64,000 bases of DNA from Nitzschia sp. pyKryTriq1 (taxonomy: Eukaryota; Bacillariophyta; Bacillariophyceae; Bacillariales; Bacillariaceae). Both the position numbers and the translations under genes were made by a program. The stretch spans positions 248,001-312,000 of the forward strand of contig OY101130.1 in assembly GCA_956465555.1 (NCBI GenBank). Direction: 5' to 3'. Below, piece by piece: positions 7,364 through 63,637 of the stretch (positions are counted from its first letter, which is position 1; the number at the start of each line of letters is the position of its first letter). The notes under the pieces are model-generated. The model saw nothing but the letters and a program-made list of their open reading frames with translations, did not search any database and had not been told where the DNA came from.

Positions 7364-8197
7364 CCAACCAGAAAATCAAGTAATGGTTTTGATGATGATG
7401 ATGATGATGATGATTATTATGATTATGATACGAGTAAATATTATACTCTATTACTTGTACCCGTAATATGGTTCGGTGCATACCGGTATCGGTATACATA
7501 CAGTAGTATACGCGAGTAGAAATACGCAGTAGCAATGACGACGACTGACTGACTGACTCAAGTTGAGATTCCGTCTCACCCTACGACGTCCAGACCACGT
7601 TATCTCCTGTGTTTCTCCAATAGAAACTACGGGGTTCGCACCCGTATTAGCCGGCCAAGCTACTAACGTTCCTGCTCGTACAAAGTTGGATCCATTCAAT
7701 CCCTGCGGGCTCTCAGACGAGGTGATCAACCCTTGTCATAATAGCGTGCAGTCAATGCCTGGTCTTGGGGGTCTAGTTCGTAGTAGTATTCGTAGTTGGT
7801 GGTGTAACGAGAAACCTAGCTTAATGGCGTGGCTTCGTCGTGTTGGTAGTGTGCTTGAGGTGCTTTCTTTTCGATAATTTTCCTGTGGTTTTGTGAGTAT
7901 AAATATGCAATTGCTTCCGTGTGATCGTACCGTTCGTGTGTGTTGTGGTTGTGTGGTTGTTGTTGTTATTCCGTGTTAGTGTGCTTGTTGTTCCTCGTTG
8001 AATCCTCGGCGGCGATACCACTTAGCGGCTCTAGTGCCGTACTGGCTAGACTATCTAGGTAATCGTCATCCATTGTCGATGGCGGATTGTTGTGTTGGGT
8101 TGGACACAGATCATACTGCTCGACGGTCCATCCATCTCTGATGGCTGGTTGTCAAGATCCAAGTGACCCTGTCAAATGTCCTTATGACTACTTGGAT
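7364..8197. other. intergenic, no supported gene
   Basis: Upstream of the photolyase. It begins with a GAT trinucleotide run (~7387-7412). Near 7629-7645 an ACGGG...CCCGT hairpin with a GTTCGCA loop resembles a tRNA T-arm, but no tRNA can be completed around it. The remaining short ORFs are not convincing. Confidence 0.5.
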
Positions 8198-52657: not shown

Positions 52658-53671
52658 ATGGCGGTTGTTTCCCATCGGCCCCGTCCTCGTCGGCAGTCTT
52701 TCGTCGTCCCTCCCTCGTCCGGACTAATGCTTTTGCTGTCTTTGGGCGGGGCTTCCCTCAGTTCATTATCGGTAGTATGTTCCGCTCAAGAGATGTTGAC
52801 GGCCCAGTCGCTCTATCAAGGCATGCAAGACGGACTTTATGATGCTGTGATTGACGTGAGGAGTCAGGTGGAATGGGACGCGGGCCATATTGAAAATGCC
52901 ACTCTGGTCGCCGATATGTTGTCGACGGCTAGTCGGAATGAAAGTATTCCCAGCGTTTTGGATGGATGCCAAGAAGAGTGCACTTTGGTCGTCACTTGTC
53001 GATCGGGAGCAAGGGCCGCCGAGGCCATTCTGCTTTTGCAAAGCCAGTACAACTTTACGGGAACATTGTACAACGGGCGGGGTACCACGCAGTGGACCAT
53101 GGCAGGGTATGAATTGGTCAACACGGAATCGGTAGTGCCGCCCTGTAATAGCAATGCCGCCAATCCAGGCCAGGTTTGTGGTCGTCAAAGTCAACCAGGC
53201 GAAGAGGCACCCTCAACGGGTCCTCGATATTCCTTGACCGCGGCACCCGGTACCGGTACCCCTACGGAGGCGCCATCGTCGTCGTCGTCCTCTGCCATGC
53301 CTTCGGATATGCCTTCCTTGGCGCCATCTTCTGCGCCATCGACGTCGACTCCTACGGCCACACCTTCTCTCCGGCCGCCGTCGACGTTGTCGTTCTCCTT
53401 GTCGGCACCTCCAGTAGCCGCGACGACGACGACATCCCCGTCGAGCTCGTCCCAGGAGGTCGTACAATTACTGCCTCCGACGTCGGCGGTCGTACAAGTA
53501 CTACCTGGTGCGACGGCGTCGGCGGTACAAGAGCAGGACCCTAGTAAAACCGGTGCGGCATCATCTGCCCAAAAGTCTCAGTCATCGTCGGCCGGCGCGG
53601 GGATGTCTACCACCACCACTGTCTCCTACTGGATGTCCTCATTGTTGCTATTTCTTTTAGCAGTATTCTAG
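52658..53671 (+). CDS. secreted, probably GPI-anchored rhodanese-domain protein
   Basis: A 337-residue single-exon protein. A basic N-terminus and hydrophobic segment (~22-43, LMLLLSLGGASLSSLSVVCSA) form a signal peptide. The rhodanese domain is ~48-155: AVIDVRSQVEWDAGHIENA (the CH2A-type D-[VL]-R ... GHI-x-[GN]-A) and an active loop TCRSGARAAEA with C114. It ends in GG/TMAGYELVN-like sequence. A long Ser/Thr/Pro linker (~180-315) contains PSDMPSLAPSSAPS motifs typical of diatom surface proteins. The last ~15 residues are hydrophobic (WMSSLLLFLLAVF) right after a Ser/Thr/Ala stretch, the layout of a GPI attachment signal. A sulfurtransferase at the cell surface is unusual; most rhodaneses are intracellular. 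The catalytic Cys is present. Confidence 0.85.
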   Translation: MAVVSHRPRPRRQSFVVPPSSGLMLLLSLGGASLSSLSVVCSAQEMLTAQSLYQGMQDGLYDAVIDVRSQVEWDAGHIENATLVADMLSTASRNESIPSVLDGCQEECTLVVTCRSGARAAEAILLLQSQYNFTGTLYNGRGTTQWTMAGYELVNTESVVPPCNSNAANPGQVCGRQSQPGEEAPSTGPRYSLTAAPGTGTPTEAPSSSSSSAMPSDMPSLAPSSAPSTSTPTATPSLRPPSTLSFSLSAPPVAATTTTSPSSSSQEVVQLLPPTSAVVQVLPGATASAVQEQDPSKTGAASSAQKSQSSSAGAGMSTTTTVSYWMSSLLLFLLAVF

Positions 53672-54689
53672 TCTAGCGGCATGAGGAGGGGGGGGGGGAC
53701 AGGGGAGGATCATTATGATATACTTTCTTCACACATCATAAAATGTACAAAGCTGGTTTTTAGAAACAAGGTAAACTGTACTGTAGTCGTGGTCTACTAC
53801 TAATTGAGTGTTCTACCTACTTGTTGTAGAAAGTACAGTACGCGTATATTATAACGTTGTAATGCTGGAAAAGCGACCAGGCGGTTCCCTCGAGCCACCG
53901 GTCTGAGTACCAAGTACTATGCATCACTGCTGCTAGAAGGGGACTACTGTATGAGTACTTGCACTGTACCGCCGGTATGCTTGACTTCAAGTGCGCTGTT
54001 CTTCTCTGCTGCTGCTGCATCACGAGTGCATTCTAGCATACTCGTACGTGCAGGGATATGTTGTATCCCCCGCCCTGCTGTGGTGTATCTGGTCTTTCCT
54101 ATGTTGTACTATGTATGTGTTTTTAATTCTACATATTTTTTCGAAACCTTCCTCCCCATCACGACACCGCGCATACCGGGAAAAAAGAAGAGACTGACTC
54201 ATTCGTTTGGCATCGCATACAGTATGCGAAAAGAGAATGAGCGCGGTACAGGAGATAGGGATATTCTAAGTCGAGTGAGTCAGACGCAAATTTCAACAAC
54301 AACAACAACGTGACGTTTGAAACCTGAACAACATCAATGGCCTTCACTTTCAATGTTGTGTCTCTCTGCGCTGTGCGCTGCGCTTCCAAACTGCACGATA
54401 AATCTCAGAGATCAAGAAATCGGAGGAAAGAAAACTATGCCATCGTACTACTCTAATAAGATACCGGTATAGTAACAACCAAGACCCAGGGATCAACGGC
54501 GTACGAAATTGTAGTAGTGAAGTGAAAGCCGAGCGAAAAGTTGTTGGTGTGTTGGTGTGTGTCTTGTAAATCATGTTGTTCGTTCTTGCTTTACTTATTT
54601 CAAAAAGTTGTAGTAATTGTTGTTGTTGTAGCAGCCCAAAAATGGTAGTCCCCCTCCTGTACTCGAAGCTTAAACAGTCTAGCAGTAGA
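53672..54689. other. intergenic, left flank of the tandem array
   Basis: Contains a poly-G run (~53690), ACT/AGT and CAA runs. At 54541-54650 is a diverged relative of the array boundary (GGTGTGTGTCTTGTAAAT ... CCCAAAAATGG), which suggests an older duplication. No gene seen. Confidence 0.5.
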
Positions 54690-54854
54690 GTAAAGGCTAA
54701 GGGTGTGGGTGTGTCTTGTAAATTCGTATAGGCGTATTATGCTGCTTTAGCGATAGCAATAGTGATTTTGTTTCTTCTTCTACTCGTCCTGTAAGTTGTA
54801 TTTATTGTAAGCCCCAAAAATGATAAATCCGCGTGTCTTTGCTCTAGACTGACA

Positions 54855-55211
54855 TTATCGTCGGAACAAGATGCCTCGAAGGCCACCTTTTCGTCCTTGG
54901 CTGCTACTAGCATCGGAGACCACGGACGACTGGTCTGAGGACGCGCCAGAGTCGACGTAGTCCGAAAGGGACGCGGACCCAGCGGGAATCTTGACGGCCT
55001 CGAGATCCCAGTTCAGTCTTCGCATGGCCTCTTGCTCGTCTTGGGCCTTGGCTTGAAAGATTCGGATAGCTTCATTTCGAACCTCGTAGACTTGATCCTT
55101 GGAGGGGTAGCCCTCAATGCCGAGAGTGACTCGGGCCTCTGCGGCGATGCTTCGGGCATCAATGAAGCGAAGGTCAAGTTCGCGGGTGAGGAGGCTTTCG
55201 ACGGATGGCAT
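54855..55211 (-). CDS. array gene A, copy 1 (small protein, unknown family)
   Basis: A 118-residue protein. The N-terminal ~72 residues form one ordered domain: SVESLLTRELDLRFIDARSI, then AAEARVTLGIEGYPSK and a helix ending MRRLNWDLEAVK. A Ser/Asp-rich linker and a basic tail (RKGGLRGILFRR) follow. In copy 1 the frame is open upstream to 55448, but a one-base difference in a T-run closes this extension in copies 2 and 3, so the start is the ATG at 55211. It is paralogous to gene B (about 45 of 72 residues identical, no gaps, counted by hand). Starts of A1 and B1 face away from each other across ~980 bp. I do not know this family. No signal peptide or membrane helix. Confidence 0.75.
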   Translation of the reverse strand: MPSVESLLTRELDLRFIDARSIAAEARVTLGIEGYPSKDQVYEVRNEAIRIFQAKAQDEQEAMRRLNWDLEAVKIPAGSASLSDYVDSGASSDQSSVVSDASSSQGRKGGLRGILFRR

Positions 55212-56189
55212 GGTGGTGAGTGTTTTTTGTGATTGTGAGCGTTGCGCTTGTTGGCTTGCCGATTGAGTGGAAGATGAAATTGTGAGGAGAGTTTGATCGG
55301 CAGTTTTTGAGGGTGTCACTCCGTTTTGAGGTTGCTGAACGATGACGAGGGGGCGCTCAGCCTCCGATCCCGTCATTAGATAGAGTCTGTTGTTGGGTGA
55401 TAGAATAGTTTCACCGAGTACAATTTCGTATATGCCTTGACAGCGCAAAAATATTCTGCCGTTTCTTTCTACTCCCGAAAAGACTTTTCAATAAGTAAGT
55501 CGAGTAACTTTTATGCCACTGATATTCCGTTCTACAGAAGTGTTGAAAGTCCCAACAAGCACTACGGTCTAACTAATAAGTCTATTCGAAAGAAGCCGAA
55601 GAATCATTCCATGCATGCTCGTACAATAGTACCGTACGGTAATATGCAGTTCCGTCGCCTTCGTATGTTGATGGAAAAGATACCTTTATCGTATTTTAGT
55701 AGTAGGGGCCGATTTACACTACGGACTCCCGGAATAACGGATGTGCCTTTCTCATTTACTATGCTTGGGTGTTATTGATACTATCTACATAATGATCTAC
55801 GATCGCTTCTGGAGGATAAAACGTCCGAGGCATCATCGGAACCTCAATACAATCGTGCTCCTACTAGGCATTTAGTATTGACACTACTATGACTTATTTG
55901 CTCCTATGACAAAAACTTTCTCCTACTAGTACAAAAGGATATTTCGGACCTTTCGATGTGCATCTTTGCTTGGACCTCTTTGCTTCCGCCTCTTCTATCA
56001 CCATCCGTTTGAAATCTTAAAACATGCTCTGCTATTAATAGTACTACTAGTGGTAATGTATTTTTTTACATCCTCGCTTCTTCTTTCTTCGTCTCATAAT
56101 TTCAGCAGATTCCACAGAATCGTCAAGAACATCTTCTTCATCACTTCTTTGTTCTTCATCACAACAACAACAACAACAACAATATCATC

Positions 56190-56585
56190 ATGATGTCATC
56201 AACAAGCGTTGAAGGATACTTGACTCGCGAGCTTGACATTCGTTTCATCGACGCTCGATCAATTGCCAATGAAGCCAAGATTTTCCTCGGAATCTCAGGC
56301 TACCCAAGCAAGGAGGAATACCAGCTCGTTCGACTCCAAGCTACTCGCATTTTTCACCAACGACCCGAGAGCGAAAGGGCGACCATGCGACGAATGAATT
56401 CCGACTTGGAAGCTGTCAAAGCAGTTCACAACGTACGCACCAGCGGCACCTCTCTGGATGGATACAGCACTGACGGCGCCGGCGGCTCATCTGTCGAAGA
56501 ATCATCATCAACGACGAGCAGCAGTAAAAGATCAACAAAACGAGGCTGGCTTCAGCGAACCTTTTCTTCTGGTGGTGACCAATAG
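56190..56585 (+). CDS. array gene B, copy 1 (paralogue of A)
   Basis: A 131-residue protein with the same domain as gene A: SVEGYLTRELDIRFIDARSI, then ANEAKIFLGISGYPSK and MRRMNSDLEAVK. A Ser/Thr/Gly-rich linker and a basic, aromatic tail (KRSTKRGWLQRTFSSGG) replace the A-type tail. The start may be either of two adjacent ATGs (56190 or 56193). The leader has a CAA run. Protein sequence is identical in copy 2. A shared conserved core with different linkers but similar basic ends suggests the tail binds nucleic acid, membrane or a partner; this is inference. Confidence 0.75.
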   Translation: MMSSTSVEGYLTRELDIRFIDARSIANEAKIFLGISGYPSKEEYQLVRLQATRIFHQRPESERATMRRMNSDLEAVKAVHNVRTSGTSLDGYSTDGAGGSSVEESSSTTSSSKRSTKRGWLQRTFSSGGDQ

Positions 56586-57366
56586 AAAAAGAAGCCGTCT
56601 CTCCGCCCTCCACCACCAGCAGCAGCAGGACCAAGACCATCAGGATGATCTTGACGGGCACCATGATGATGGGATACAGTAAGTTACTAAATATATTTGA
56701 ATACTCGAATCGGTACAGCAGCAGCAGCAGCACAAAGTAGTACTACCACCATGATCTACTACTAGTACTACCTGTCGTCCCCACTAGACTAGTATTGTTA
56801 ACGCAGGCCGGTCGCGAAAGAAGAAGCGCAGCAGCCGCCGCACCACCAGCCAAGACTACTATCATGCCGTATTTGTACTGTACTACTACTACTACTACTA
56901 CTAGTCGTTCTTGTTCTTCCGCCTTCTCCAAGAAGACTGCGGCTAGTAGTAGTAGTAGTGGTACTTCGAAGCAAGAAGCCTCTCTAATAGTAGAGGAGTA
57001 GTAGTAAGGAGAACCTGGTAGTCTCTGTGGTCAAGCAGTGCTGCGTCCTACTACTACTACAAACAATATCATCAGCAGTATTGTACCGTAGTAGTACTGG
57101 CTCCTGCGATAAAAAGTCTCGGTAGACATGATGGTAAAGGTAGTACTAGAGTAAGGGCTAAAGGTGTGGGTGTGTCTTGTAAATTCGTATAGGCGTATTA
57201 TGTAAAGGCTATATATGTGGGTGTGTCTTGTAAATTCGTTTAGACGTATTATGCTGCTTTAGCGATAGCAATACTGATTTTGTTTCTTCTTCTACTCGTC
57301 CTGTAAGTTGTATTTATTGTAAGCCCCAAAAATGATAAATCCGCGTGTCTTTGCTCTAGACTGACA

Positions 57367-57723
57367 TTATCGTCGGAACAAGATGCCTCGAAGGCCACCT
57401 TTTCGTCCTTGGCTGCTACTAGCATCGGAGACCACGGACGACTGGTCTGAGGACGCGCCAGAGTCGACGTAGTCCGAAAGGGACGCGGACCCAGCGGGAA
57501 TCTTGACGGCCTCGAGATCCCAGTTCAGTCTTCGCATGGCCTCTTGCTCGTCTTGGGCCTTGGCTTGAAAGATTCGGATAGCTTCATTTCGAACCTCGTA
57601 GACTTGATCCTTGGAGGGGTAGCCCTCAATGCCGAGAGTGACTCGGGCCTCTGCGGCGATGCTTCGGGCATCAATGAAGCGAAGGTCAAGTTCGCGGGTG
57701 AGGAGGCTTTCGACGGATGGCAT
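57367..57723 (-). CDS. array gene A, copy 2
   Basis: 118 residues, identical to A1 at protein level. The seven-T run just upstream of the ATG breaks the open frame that A1 has there, which confirms MPSVESLL as the start. It converges with B1 (stop at 56585); ~780 bp between them hold trinucleotide repeats. Confidence 0.75.
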   Translation of the reverse strand: MPSVESLLTRELDLRFIDARSIAAEARVTLGIEGYPSKDQVYEVRNEAIRIFQAKAQDEQEAMRRLNWDLEAVKIPAGSASLSDYVDSGASSDQSSVVSDASSSQGRKGGLRGILFRR

Positions 57724-58704
57724 GGTGGTGAGTGTTTTTTTGTGATTGTGAGCGTTGCGCTTGTTGGCTTGCCGATTGAGTGGAAGATGAAATTGTGAGG
57801 AGAGTTTGATCGGCAGTTTTTGAGGGTGTCACTCCGTTTTGAGGTTGCTGAACGATGACGAGGGGGCGCTCAGCCTCCGATCCCGTCATTAGATAGAGTC
57901 TGTTGTTGGGTGGTATAGAATAGTTTCACCGAGTACAATTTCGTATATGCCTTGACAGCGCAAAAATATTCTGCCGTTTCTTTCTACTCCCGAAAAGATT
58001 TTTCAATAAGTAAGTCGAGTAACTTTTATGCCACTGATATTCCGTTCTACAGAAGTGTTGAAAGTCCCAACAAGCACTACGGTCTAACTAATAAGTCTAT
58101 TCGAAAGAAGCCGAAGAATCATTCCATGCATGCTCGTACAATAGTACCGTACGGTAATATGCAGTTCCGTCGCCTTCGTATGTTGATGGAAAAGATACCT
58201 TTATCGTATTTTAGTAGTAGGGGCCGATTTACACTACGGACTCCCGGAATAACGGATGTGCCTTTCTCATTTACTATGCTTGGGTGTTATTGATACTATC
58301 TACATAATGATCTACGATCGCTTCTGGAGGATAAAACGTCCGAGGCATCATCGGAACCTCAATACAATCGTGCTCCTACTAGGCATTTAGTATTGACACT
58401 ACTATGACTTATTTGCTCCTATGACAAAAACTTTCTCCTACTAGTACAAAAGGATATTTCGGACCTTTCGATGTGCATCTTTGCTTGGACCTCTTTGCTT
58501 CCGCCTCTTCTATCACCATCCGTTTGAAATCTTAAAACATGCTCTGCTATTAATAGTACTACTAGTGGTAATGTATTTTTTTACATCCTCGCTTCTTCTT
58601 TCTTCGTCTCATAATTTCAGCAGATTCCACAGAATCGTCAAGAACATCTTCTTCATCACTTCTTTGTTCTTCATCACAACAACAACAACAACAACAATAT
58701 CATC

Positions 58705-59100
58705 ATGATGTCATCAACAAGCGTTGAAGGATACTTGACTCGCGAGCTTGACATTCGTTTCATCGACGCTCGATCAATTGCCAATGAAGCCAAGATTTTC
58801 CTCGGAATCTCAGGCTACCCAAGCAAGGAGGAATACCAGCTCGTTCGACTCCAAGCTACTCGCATTTTTCACCAACGACCCGAGAGCGAAAGGGCGACCA
58901 TGCGACGAATGAATTCCGACTTGGAAGCTGTCAAAGCAGTTCACAACGTACGCACCAGCGGCACCTCTCTGGATGGATACAGCACTGACGGCGCCGGCGG
59001 CTCATCTGTCGAAGAATCATCATCAACGACGAGCAGCAGTAAAAGATCAACAAAACGAGGCTGGCTTCAGCGAACCTTTTCTTCTGGTGGTGACCAATAG
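58705..59100 (+). CDS. array gene B, copy 2
   Basis: 131 residues, identical to B1. It sits 981 bp from the A2 start, head to head, in the same arrangement as copy 1. A 67-codon ORF follows at 59299 and corresponds to one of 68 codons at 56795. It is mostly trinucleotide-repeat encoded and I do not call it. Confidence 0.75.
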   Translation: MMSSTSVEGYLTRELDIRFIDARSIANEAKIFLGISGYPSKEEYQLVRLQATRIFHQRPESERATMRRMNSDLEAVKAVHNVRTSGTSLDGYSTDGAGGSSVEESSSTTSSSKRSTKRGWLQRTFSSGGDQ

Positions 59101-59867
59101 AAAAAGAAGCCGTCTCTCCGCCCTCCACCACCAGCAGCAGCAGGACCAAGACCATCAGGATGATCTTGACGGGCACCATGATGATGGGATACAGTAAGTT
59201 ACTAAATATATTTGAATACTCGAATCAGCAGCAGCACAAAGTAGTACTACCACCATGATCTACTACTAGTACTACCTGTCGTCCCCACTAGACTAGTATT
59301 GTTATCGCAGGCCGGTCGCGAAAGAAGAAGCGCAGCAGCCGCCGCACCACCAGCCAAGACTACTATCATGCCGTATTTGTACTGTACTACTACTACTACT
59401 ACTACTCGTTCTTGTTCTTCCGCCTTCTCCAAGAAGACTGCGGCTAGTAGTAGTAGTAGTGGTACTTCGAAGCAAGAAGCCTCTCTAATAGTAGAGGAGT
59501 AGTAGTAAGGAGAACCTGGTAGTCTCTGTGGTCAAGCAGTGCTGCGTCCTACTACTACTACAAACAATATCATCAGCAGTATTGTACCGTAGTAGTACTG
59601 GCTCCTGCGATAAAAAGTCTCGGTAGACATGATGGTAAAGGTAGTACTAGAGTAAGGGCTAAAGGTGTGGGTGTGTCTTGTAAATTCGTATAGGCGTATT
59701 ATGTAAAGGCTATATATGTGGGTGTGTCTTGTAAATTCGTTTAGACGTATTATGCTGCTTTAGCGATAGCAATACTGATTTTGTTTCTTCTTCTACTCGT
59801 CCTGTAAGTTGTATTTATTGTAAGCCCCAAAAATGATAAATCCGCGTGTCTTTGCTCTAGACTGACA

Positions 59868-60224
59868 TTATCGTCGGAACAAGATGCCTCGAAGGCCACC
59901 TTTTCGTCCTTGGCTGCTACTAGCATCGGAGACCACGGACGACTGGTCTGAGGACGCGCCAGAGTCGACGTAGTCCGAAAGGGACGCGGACCCAGCGGGA
60001 ATCTTGACGGCCTCGAGATCCCAGTTCAGTCTTCGCATGGCCTCTTGCTCGTCTTGGGCCTTGGCTTGAAAGATTCGGATAGCTTCATTTCGAACCTCGT
60101 AGACTTGATCCTTGGAGGGGTAGCCCTCAATGCCGAGAGTGACTCGGGCCTCTGCGGCGATGCTTCGGGCATCAATGAAGCGAAGGTCAAGTTCGCGGGT
60201 GAGGAGGCTTTCGACGGATGGCAT
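59868..60224 (-). CDS. array gene A, copy 3
   Basis: 118 residues, identical to A1 and A2. The repeat unit continues only ~330 bp past its start before the inserted element at 60552, so its head-to-head B partner is missing. Confidence 0.75.
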   Translation of the reverse strand: MPSVESLLTRELDLRFIDARSIAAEARVTLGIEGYPSKDQVYEVRNEAIRIFQAKAQDEQEAMRRLNWDLEAVKIPAGSASLSDYVDSGASSDQSSVVSDASSSQGRKGGLRGILFRR

Positions 60225-60551
60225 GGTGGTGAGTGTTTTTTTGTGATTGTGAGCGTTGCGCTTGTTGGCTTGCCGATTGAGTGGAAGATGAAATTGTGAG
60301 GAGAGTTTGATCGGCAGTTTTTGAGGGTGTCACTCCGTTTTGAGGTTGCTGAACGATGACGAGGGGGCGCTCAGCCTCCGATCCCGTCATTAGATAGAGT
60401 CTGTTGTTGGGTGATAGAATAGTTTCACCGAGTACAATTTCGTATATGCCTTGACAGCGCAAAAATATTCTGCCGTTTCTTTCTACTCCCGAAAAGACTT
60501 TTCAATAAGTAAGTCGAGTAACTTTTATGCCACTGATATTCCGTGCCACAG

Positions 60552-61540
60552 GTGGAAGTACAGTCAGTTCTCGTTGAGAGTTGCAGGTGGTATCTGGAGC
60601 TACCGTGTAACTCTTACTGAGAATGTAACTCTTATTGCCGACGGACAGACTCCACACTTCATCACGAAACACGTTTGCGCGTGCGCCATAAGGTGCAGTA
60701 GGTACTGTACGTCCTGTATACGGTACCGGTACACCGGACAGTCTACCAGTAGGAACAGTACAGTACTGAACCACTACTCTACAGTACAGTGCTGTACTGT
60801 ACTGTACGGTGGGTTTGTCATTGGAATCATCATCTTCCGTACCCGTAAACCCAAAACATTACATTCTCCCTCCAATGTTGGACTGCATCATACTTTTTGC
60901 AGCAAGATGTCCGAAACAGTTAAAAAGAAAAAGGGTGGGATTCCAGCTGGGACAAGGCTCGAACGCAAAGCCAGTTCCTTTTGGCTGGCATCCGCAAGTT
61001 TGCCTTGAAGAATGGCTACTCGGAGGGAGTAGCAACTGCTGTTGGCATCCTTGCCCATTGGATGCGTGTAGAGCGGAACAGCAAGCGGGCAGCAACCGGA
61101 TCCCTCCTTGGGATGGGTTTTACTCGTACGAAGAAGAAGAAAAATAAAAAGAGTGGGGAGGATGATGATGATTCTTCCGTGTCCGGGCTTGATGCAGAAT
61201 AATTACTACTGTAGAAGCGTACATGTTCACAACAGTACAGTACAGTTCAGTTCTTGTATCGCATTATGCAGTTGGTACAGTACTGTTCGTACGGTACACT
61301 TTGTGTTGTTTCGCGAAAACGCGGGTTTTTTACGCGTTGTGATTGGTTGAGTGATGATGATTCCGATCAAGTGACAAGTTCCCTCTGATTGACACCACGT
61401 GTTCTTTTTCATCTGGCCGCCGCTCCTTTGGAGCTCGAGGTCACATGGAGAGGTCTGGGTGGTGTCGGGGCATGTTGTGTAACTCTCCTTAGGAGTGTAA
61501 CTCTCTCGTTGTAACTCTCAGCGAGAACTGGCTGTACTAC
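60552..61540. mobile_element. inverted-repeat element inserted in array copy 3
   Basis: Imperfect terminal inverted repeats at 60557-60586 and 61507-61538 (AGTACAG[TC]CAGTTCTCG[TC]... and its complement; 26 of 29 bases match). The motif TGTAACTCT recurs twice inside the left end and three times inside the right end, as subterminal repeats of DNA transposons do. Array sequence stops at ACAG (60551) and a diverged continuation (TGTTGAAAGTCC ... AACTAATAAGTCT ... AAAGAAGCC) resumes at 61541. It carries one frameshifted ORF and GTAC-palindrome clusters. No superfamily is assigned; no clear target-site duplication. Confidence 0.65.
60907..61202 (+). pseudogene. small basic/acidic-tailed ORF with one frameshift, inside the element
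   Basis: ATG at 60907 opens MSETVKKKKGGIPAGTRLER ... KASSF. The frame then breaks within a T4 run at 60979-60982. The coding signal continues in another frame from 60981: LAGIRKFALKNGYSEGVATA, then AHWMRVERNSKRAATGSLLG, a Lys cluster, and an acidic DDDDSSVSGLDAE end with a stop. A one-base loss in the T run explains it (pseudogene or sequencing error). Roughly 99 residues in all. Not a known transposase; function unknown. Confidence 0.5.
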
Positions 61541-62158
61541 TGTTGAAAGTCCAGACAAGTAGAGATAGATGAGATGAATACTCGTTTCTTGCATGCTCTC
61601 GGTCCAACTAATAAGTCTTTTCCAAAGAAGCCAGTAGTAGAGGAAGTTTTCACAACAAGGGAGTAATTTTTTGCCGCGGAATTGACTTGGCGCGAAGATT
61701 TCGGAGGGAGTCGTCTGGCCGGATGATAGGGAAGAAAAGGTGGCAACAGGTCATGGGCCTAGCGCAAGTACCACGCGCAGTACTCCTTGCTTCCTGGCGA
61801 AAATTTATTAAAGGGCGTGCACCGTCTACCGGTGTCTGGCCGATGTAGGTTTTCCCGCCAGTTCTATGATGAGTTCCGACCACCGCGCTGTCTTTCAGCG
61901 CGAGAGCATTTTATAGTAATAGCCAACCAACATGCATCATCGATAGAACTCTCCTCTTTCCTGCCTCTCTTCTTTCGACCTTCGACCGCATCCTGGATGG
62001 GGGTTGGTGATGATGGTCGGTGCGATGAACAATTCAATCTTTATTTTCCCTCCTTACGAATCATTCATCTGTTGAATCATCATCATCATCATCATCATCT
62101 ACACCTAATACAAGAGCAAAATACTACGCTCAGGAGAAAAATCTCCAATAATATAATC
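61541..62158. other. intergenic; diverged array remnant at left end
   Basis: The first ~100 bp resemble the array downstream of 55540 (see element). The remainder is leader of the BUD22-like gene, with a CAT run near 62075-62098. Its frame is open from 61787, but without an ATG until 62159 that gives a sensible protein. Confidence 0.5.
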
Positions 62159-63637
62159 ATGAGTGCTGATGCTGATGCTGATGCTGATGCTGATGCTGAT
62201 TCCACCGCCAGCAGCGTCGACGACGACCAGCAGTCCTCCCCTACTACGGATGATGATGGTGATGATGATGAGGAGGAGGAGGAGGAGGAAGTTTCCAGGA
62301 AGATCAAGAGTGACGCTGACCACGGCGTTCTCGAACCCAAAACACCACCACTCGAGGACTCAGCGGAATCATCGTCCAAAGCGTCCAATGTTGGTGGCAG
62401 TGGTATTAGTAACAAGAATGAAAATCACAAGGAAGAAACTGGTGTTAGTGCTACTGGTACGACCAACACAAAGAACAAGAAGAACAAAATCCCCTCGCGC
62501 AAAACCAAGAAACGCAGTCGCAAAGACTTTGCCATGGATGCCCTGGACCAACAGTTGGCATTGAAACAAGATCGATATGACAAGTTATTGTATATTGCCA
62601 AAAAGCAACTGGCCAAACAAGCCAAGCAGGTCCGAACCTTTATGGTGCAGCGCAACATTCGAAAGCTCAAGAATGATAGCAACAACAACAACAACAACAA
62701 CAACAGCAGCAGCAGCAGCAGCAAAGGCGACGACAAGAACGACGAGGAGGAAGAACAGGAGCAGCAGCAGCAGCAGCGACTGCTCCAGCCGCTCAAAGAT
62801 TTGCCAATCGATTTGGTAGTTGAACAAGCGATTCGTCAATTGGGTTTGATTCATGCCAATCCCAATCCAGAAACGACCTTTACTCCCCCAGTGGCAGTGC
62901 CCATGGAACAATCCAAACTCATTTCGTCCGTTTTGGATCACAAACGATTCCAGTCGGCCCTGGAAGAATGGAACGAAAAGGTTGCCGACTTTCGACGGTT
63001 TTGCTTAATGATGGACGATAGCAATAACAACAAATTTACTCCGTCCAGTGATGCGATCCCTACGACGAAACGAGGTAAAAAAGGCAACAAGAAGCGACAA
63101 CAGACCACCACTTCCCTACGACCACAGCAAAGTGATCAGCAGCAGCAACAACAACAACAGGAGCAACCCACATCGTTCTTTATCAGAAGCTTGAATAATA
63201 ATAATGATCAAGAAGCATTGCAAGAAATCCAGGAGGAGACTGAAAACAATGCCATGCTCGCGTATGGTCCCGCGGCTACCATGGCGGAAGGGGAGTTTGC
63301 TAAACCCAAGAATCGACAAGGACAACGGGCTCGCAAAGCCAAAGCTCTAGCGATTCAATCCAAAAAGGAAGGCCGACAATACCAATCCTTGAATTGGAGA
63401 GAAGAAAAGACGACGGCACAGAAAAACGATGATGAATCTAAATCCAACAACAACAACAACAAAAAGTCGTCGTCGAAGCAGCATGGCGAAACCAAGTCCA
63501 AGGCTGTCGCTGCTGTCAAGAAGCACCAGCCGCCATCAGCAGAGGATGCCGCATCCCAACATCCATCTTGGGTCGCCAAACAACAGCAAAAATCTGGTAT
63601 CGTGGCCTTTCAAGGGAAGAAGATTACCTTTGACTAG
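62159..63637 (+). CDS. BUD22: BUD22/SRFBP1-family ribosome biogenesis protein
   Basis: A 492-residue single-exon protein. It begins with an Ala-Asp repeat encoded by (GATGCT)n (62163-62200), then acidic Asp/Glu runs and a basic patch (KIPSRKTKKRSRKDF). A coiled-coil region (~120-165, LDQQLALKQDRYDKLLYIAK) and ordered segment with DLPIDLVVEQAIRQLGL follow. Asn, Ser, Gln and Lys-rich spacers separate short conserved blocks such as RQGQRARKAKALA. The C-terminus, HPSWVAKQQQKSGIVAFQGK then KITFD, is the conserved end of yeast Bud22 and human SRFBP1 (HPSW-x-A ... FQGKKI-x-FD). Yeast Bud22 acts in 18S rRNA processing in the nucleolus. Length is close to the family. Confidence 0.85.
   Translation: MSADADADADADADSTASSVDDDQQSSPTTDDDGDDDEEEEEEEVSRKIKSDADHGVLEPKTPPLEDSAESSSKASNVGGSGISNKNENHKEETGVSATGTTNTKNKKNKIPSRKTKKRSRKDFAMDALDQQLALKQDRYDKLLYIAKKQLAKQAKQVRTFMVQRNIRKLKNDSNNNNNNNNSSSSSSKGDDKNDEEEEQEQQQQQRLLQPLKDLPIDLVVEQAIRQLGLIHANPNPETTFTPPVAVPMEQSKLISSVLDHKRFQSALEEWNEKVADFRRFCLMMDDSNNNKFTPSSDAIPTTKRGKKGNKKRQQTTTSLRPQQSDQQQQQQQQEQPTSFFIRSLNNNNDQEALQEIQEETENNAMLAYGPAATMAEGEFAKPKNRQGQRARKAKALAIQSKKEGRQYQSLNWREEKTTAQKNDDESKSNNNNNKKSSSKQHGETKSKAVAAVKKHQPPSAEDAASQHPSWVAKQQQKSGIVAFQGKKITFD

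Follow-up and report, generated by a model that had tools for sequence, protein, structure and literature searches.

A recent tandem array of divergent paralogous gene pairs in the diatom Nitzschia sp. pyKryTriq1

A 2.50-2.51-kb unit carrying two paralogous small-protein genes, A and B, is present 2.3 times at 54690-60545 of a 64,000-nucleotide stretch of Nitzschia sp. pyKryTriq1 (the window; contig OY101130.1, here C16, positions 248001-312000). Coordinates given without a contig or stretch name are those of the window. The genome searched comprises 40.65 Mb in 20 contigs. The array includes three A genes and two B genes. In the full units, A lies on the minus strand and B on the plus strand, and both face away from a common spacer. 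The array is best explained by a recent tandem amplification of this divergent pair, with a control region in the spacer, an increased dose of both genes and an adaptor role of the proteins. This explanation as a whole is judged moderately probable; its genomic part is well supported. As a genome feature the array is ordinary: a divergent pair was recently duplicated in tandem. The sole unexpected result is the spacer, which resembles a divergent promoter and is conserved at a second locus. Beyond a preliminary description of the array made from its sequence, the analysis adds two further loci with family members, the conservation of the head-to-head spacer, junction repeats able to explain the duplication and an element with terminal inverted repeats (TIRs). 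A constrained domain, two protein types, spacer words unique in the genome and a change in copy number make function and dosage directly testable.

Structure and age of the array

Self-BLAST of the region aligns 54690-58052 with 57202-60551 (99.1% identity) and 54690-55537 with 59703-60551 (98.8%). The direct repeats are spaced by 2512 and 2501 bp. The copies of the unit are adjacent, in the same orientation and highly identical, as in a tandem array. Unit 1 (A1 and B1) extends over 54690-57201, unit 2 (A2 and B2) over 57202-59702, and the partial unit 3 (A3 only) over 59703-60545. These limits are set from the repeat spacing and the unit alignment or, for the end of unit 3, from the point where near-identity to the other units ceases (60545-60551). 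The A genes encode identical proteins of 118 amino acids and are all on the minus strand (A1, 54855-55211; A2, 57367-57723; A3, 59868-60224). The B genes encode identical proteins of 131 amino acids and are on the plus strand (B1, 56190-56585; B2, 58705-59100). The reading frame is intact in every copy. The open reading frames (ORFs) and alignments agree with the preliminary description as to a unit of about 2.5 kb repeated 2.3 times, with paralogous A and B genes facing apart, and support the recent local gain in copy number that it proposed. The start at 54690 is also retained; at the other side, the identity of unit 3 stops at about 60545-60551 and the TIR element begins at 60557.

The A frame of unit 1 is open farther upstream, which would give 173 amino acids. 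An extra T at 57735 (unit 2) and 60236 (unit 3) breaks this extension; therefore, the 118-amino-acid start is probably the true one and the upstream extension is probably untranslated.

Repeats of about 50 bp stand where the units meet, at both junctions. The left-edge repeat (R, 54686-54741, plus strand) is 96% identical to 57147-57202 and 59648-59703. The junction of units 1 and 2 (57147-57253, plus strand) consists of R and, after it, another R that has diverged (88% over 52 nt), and the junction of units 2 and 3 (59648-59754, plus strand) has the same composition according to the unit alignment. One R at the left edge and a doubled R at each junction are what unequal crossing-over between flanking repeats of this kind would yield. 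Such crossing-over may have made a tandem array out of the 2.5-kb unit, and with the amplification A and B would have gained in dose. A unit remnant to the left of 54690 is not claimed (local score 32 vs shuffle maximum 28, GT-rich).

The units differ at few positions. Unit 1 differs from the others by six bases in the left-edge repeat, by one base 72 bp in and by the T mentioned above. GT and C>T are private to unit 2. In the B half, an 11-bp and a 3-bp segment are found in unit 1 only, and units 1 and 2 differ there by one further base. Unit 3 has one differing base at its extreme end. These differences bear on whether the array is an assembly artefact, with alleles or reads joined head to tail at a locus that in truth holds one A/B pair. 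Units that are about 99% identical would suit this reading, since alleles may be so. However, both junctions are base-continuous and each has the same two-copy repeat, the three A copies are more than two haplotypes could supply, units 1 and 2 carry the private differences listed above, and the third copy adjoins its own TIR element. Such an artefact is considered quite unlikely.

No coding base differs between units in A or B. The chance of this was estimated with differences spread evenly over 2440 bp, omitting the six bases of the left-edge repeat and the last base of unit 3. The probability of zero differences in coding sequence (CDS) is 0.33 with 3 substitutions and 0.08 with 7 events. 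The youth of the array copies is thus enough to explain their identity. Identical proteins within flanks that carry indels, as reported in the preliminary description, are a fact but a weak argument, and copy identity is not retained as a sign of selection because it falls within chance (8-33%).

The same estimate is compatible with a neutral array, i.e. an ordinary tandem duplication without any dosage benefit. If it held, the amplification proposed here, with which it overlaps, would lose only its dosage step. Some diatoms have many tandem duplicates, and those of Seminavis robusta are less constrained than dispersed ones (PMC7335047); this also favours neutrality. All frames are intact, which would speak for maintenance of the copies, but copies so young tell little in this respect. 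A neutral array is a serious possibility, somewhat short of an even chance. The likeness to the arrays described for S. robusta is the lineage-specific tandem duplication of gene families. The difference is that the unit here consists of two different paralogs, arranged divergently, that belong to a small-protein family without library match.

Family members and the conserved spacer

Four protein queries (A, B, the plus-strand copy of contig C6 and the copy of contig C10) return the same 8 places in the genome and no other at an expectation value (E) below 0.02. These 8 copies are found at 3 loci: 3 A and 2 B in the array, two B-like genes as an inverted pair on C6 and, on C10, a single A-like gene. 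At C10, an ORF for a retrotransposon reverse transcriptase (RVT_2; stretch L026, 1487-3511) lies upstream of the A-like gene.

Purifying selection on the shared domain is indicated by these distant paralogs. Between B and the C6 plus-strand copy, the nonsynonymous and synonymous distances (dN and dS, Nei-Gojobori) are 0.069 and 0.99 for the core, and 0.15 and 1.02 for the whole protein. It is this core dN/dS of about 0.07, not the identity within the array, that points to strong constraint on the domain. A dN/dS comparison between array copies, as suggested in the preliminary description, has no coding difference to work on; the measure of constraint comes instead from B against C6.

The two C6 genes (stretch L025, 3580-4113 and 5318-5857, opposite strands) differ by 1 amino acid and face apart over 1397 bp. 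They have identical core CDS and diverged flanks: 0 differences in 234 columns of core coding sequence, 5/138 in the tail, 10 mismatches and 3 gap columns in the 100 bp upstream, and 27 mismatches and 3 gaps in the 75 columns past the stop. Farther out, 73/156 and 77/209 columns are mismatched, with additional gaps, and the two sides are unlike. Because core synonymous sites also lack any difference, gene conversion confined to the gene bodies would fit better than selection on the protein. The gene in the A position being of B type, an A gene may have been overwritten there by conversion, or the reverse order may apply. Next to the inverted pair, a fragment of a short-chain dehydrogenase gene lies beside the full-length gene (L025, 6029-6237 vs 7838-8027, 83% identical).

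The A/B spacer is 978 bp long in unit 1 (55212-56189) and extends over 57724-58704 in unit 2; the blocks that it has in common with C6, in collinear order, make it a probable divergent promoter. For the comparison, the C6 spacer was oriented with its minus-strand gene in the position of B. Two exact 15-bp words are then common to the array and C6 spacers, in the same order and the same orientation. Among 3000 dinucleotide shuffles of the array spacer, trimmed by 130 bp at each end, one had a 15-bp word in common with that of C6. When the orientation is opposite, the real spacers have no common word longer than 12 bp. Block 1 (ATGCCACTGATATT, plus strand) is at 55513-55526, also at 58028-58041 and 60527-60540, 301 bp from the A start; its counterpart at C6 lies 295 bp from the left start and differs by one base. 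Block 2 (TGATGGAAAAGATAC, plus strand) is at 55669-55683 and 58184-58198, and block 3 (ATGACAAAAACTTTC, plus strand) at 55906-55920 and 58421-58435; both are exact in the C6 spacer. Block 3 has just 3 exact places in the genome, namely units 1 and 2 and the C6 spacer. Block 2 has 4: the same three and one on C1, which corresponds to the first codons of another kind of gene and is taken as a coincidence. Blocks 2 and 3 are candidate control elements.

From the collinear words at both loci it follows that the head-to-head layout predates the C6/C16 split (B-C6 dS about 1), as does a control region probably common to both genes. The A/B spacer would thus be a shared region driving both genes together. 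Bidirectional-promoter pairs are characterised by genes on opposite strands, by transcription starts no more than about 1 kb from each other, by conserved spacer elements and by correlated transcription of the two genes. The start codons are here 978 bp apart at C16, and two collinear 15-bp words, unique or nearly so, are conserved at the second locus. Unlike such pairs, the partners are paralogs and the C6 spacer is longer, with start codons 1397 bp apart. At 56093-56140, CTCATAATTTCAG and TCAAGAACATCTTCTTCA are conserved ahead of B and of the C6 plus-strand gene; they possibly correspond to a transcription start or to an element of the 5′ untranslated region. A 30-base match on C5 coincides with the CAA repeat preceding B.

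The pairing itself might be explained if A and B were subunits of one heteromer, kept adjacent, divergent and co-multiplied by selection. Each full unit has both types, and the divergent layout is conserved at C6. However, C6 has two B-type genes and no A, C10 has the A type alone, and unit 3 has A without B, so that this alternative is regarded as unlikely. A wider view of the amplified pair is put forward tentatively, as possible but not favoured: a two-type A/B system with a library-absent diatom domain (LTRELDxRFIDAR...LGIxGYPS...DLEAVK) would be encoded by a divergent unit that has conserved control words of its own and is kept at two loci. At one of them the inverted copies would have undergone gene conversion, and at the other the unit as a whole would have been amplified in tandem.

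The proteins and their possible role

A and B have an identity of 47%, and their common core is nearly free of gaps; the preliminary description had called it ungapped. In the 5 distinct proteins of the family, the core is N-terminal, has 74-77 residues and contains the invariant motifs LTRELD-RFIDAR, LGI-GYPS and DLEAVK. It is followed by a linker with 33-59% Ser/Thr. The last 20 residues form a tail with a net charge of +3 to +4. Read directly, the N-terminus has no hydrophobic leader, and the proteins are therefore probably not secreted.

The family is absent from every library searched here. No Pfam family reaches its cut-off for the A/B domain in the library search with hidden Markov models (HMMs), which agrees with the earlier suggestion that the domain may be undescribed; among the matches listed, those below threshold are Gta3 (E 0.013) and two others (E 0.077 and 0.12). 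Gta3 (PF20978) is rejected: its likeness is limited to a weak 30-residue stretch of B, in 1/5 members, with 15.8 bits vs a cut-off of 27. No match is found in NCBIfam or PHROGs at E<=0.001 (weak ones among the matches listed, E 0.02 and 0.054, and E 0.11-0.19, respectively). In PDB sequences, neither the profile nor B has a match at E<=0.2; the best are a HEAT-repeat protein for the profile (E 0.25) and E 1 for B alone. No relative is found in viral contigs (scanned with the profile and with A), in GTDB genomes (profile) or in phage and plasmid collections (B protein); as these collections cover viruses, prokaryotes and their plasmids, this absence says little about other diatoms. A literature search with four pieces of protein sequence gives no match, and no paper on the A/B family is among the matches listed for the topic. 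Many diatom genes lack any known relative.

Five weaker matches are found in the genome (E 0.03-3.2), three of which were fetched and read. They score 89, 79 and 77 vs at most 62, 47 and 55, respectively, in 300 shuffles, and matches picked from a whole genome may score above shuffles in this way. These three lack the GYPS and RFIDAR motifs and are not counted as relatives. The alignment of the first is partly on a Ser-rich run. The C9 match is a DOT1 protein over cut-off, hence of another family. The C8 match is a DUF383/DUF384 protein over cut-off, and the matched stretch overlaps DUF384. The C14 match has no family over cut-off. A very distant kinship may exist. As leads, the matches to DUF384 and to the HEAT-repeat protein are no more than weak.

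By eye, the core recalls a degenerate J-domain, by which the proteins would modulate Hsp70. LGI..(P)S..E....A.RIFH can be set in register with LGV..(A)T..E....LALKYH, and MRRMNSDLEAV alongside FKEINEAYEVL. J-like proteins without the HPD motif exist, e.g. Pam16, which has one partial match. However, with a J-domain HMM built from 40 of the 84 J-domain places found in this genome, the scores of the 5 members lie between -1.3 and -1.9 bits, and 567-881 of 2000 shuffles reach them. The profile-profile comparison (hhalign) gives a probability of 0.5%, and HPD is absent from 5/5 distinct members. The likeness to DnaJ proteins (PF00226) thus amounts to a loose pattern, and a degenerate J-domain is rejected as extremely improbable.

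In the explanation preferred here, that of an amplified pair under a common control region, A and B would be small non-secreted adaptors. A compact, probably mostly helical domain would bind a putative partner, the Ser/Thr-rich linker of about 24-34 residues would be flexible and possibly phosphorylated, and the basic tail would dock on an acidic surface, e.g. a membrane or nucleic acid. Taken by itself, this adaptor mechanism is a weak proposal and rather doubtful.

Four observations weigh against the explanation or parts of it. The best 18-residue helical moment of the core is matched by 168-484 of 500 shuffles, and helicity of the core is unsupported by this measure. The synonymous distance is saturated between A and C10 and reaches 2.1-3.1 between A and B, so that selection on A rests on little. 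The A-like gene of C10 stands alone, and the spacer words are absent from the approximately 920 bp checked upstream of it; the pair is therefore not obligatory. The pattern of block 1 occurs at 10 places in the genome and is weak alone.

Edges of the array and neighbouring genes

The end of unit 3 adjoins an element with 29-nt TIRs that are 90% complementary (60557-61538). When 60546-61540 is compared with the genome, 33 matching pieces are found, itself included; many are its ends, and several come from one copy. The element is multi-copy and probably a non-autonomous DNA transposon. It contains an ORF of 90 amino acids, and its ends recur on many contigs. On its far side, at 61592-61632 (plus strand), a remnant of the A/B spacer is left that is older and has diverged (score 52, whereas none of 300 shuffles exceeds 29). 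This remnant suggests that an earlier copy of the unit, more diverged, probably stood at this site.

The source genome is that of a diatom, as the preliminary description had supposed: it has 8 places with the silicon transporter family PF03842, 8/8 above the family cut-off. An Rfam scan of 53000-62000 gives nothing that reaches a gathering score. The left neighbour of the array (52658-53671) encodes a Rhodanese-domain protein with a hydrophobic C-terminal end. The right neighbour (62159-63637) encodes a BUD22-like protein (38.6 bits vs a Pfam cut-off of 37).

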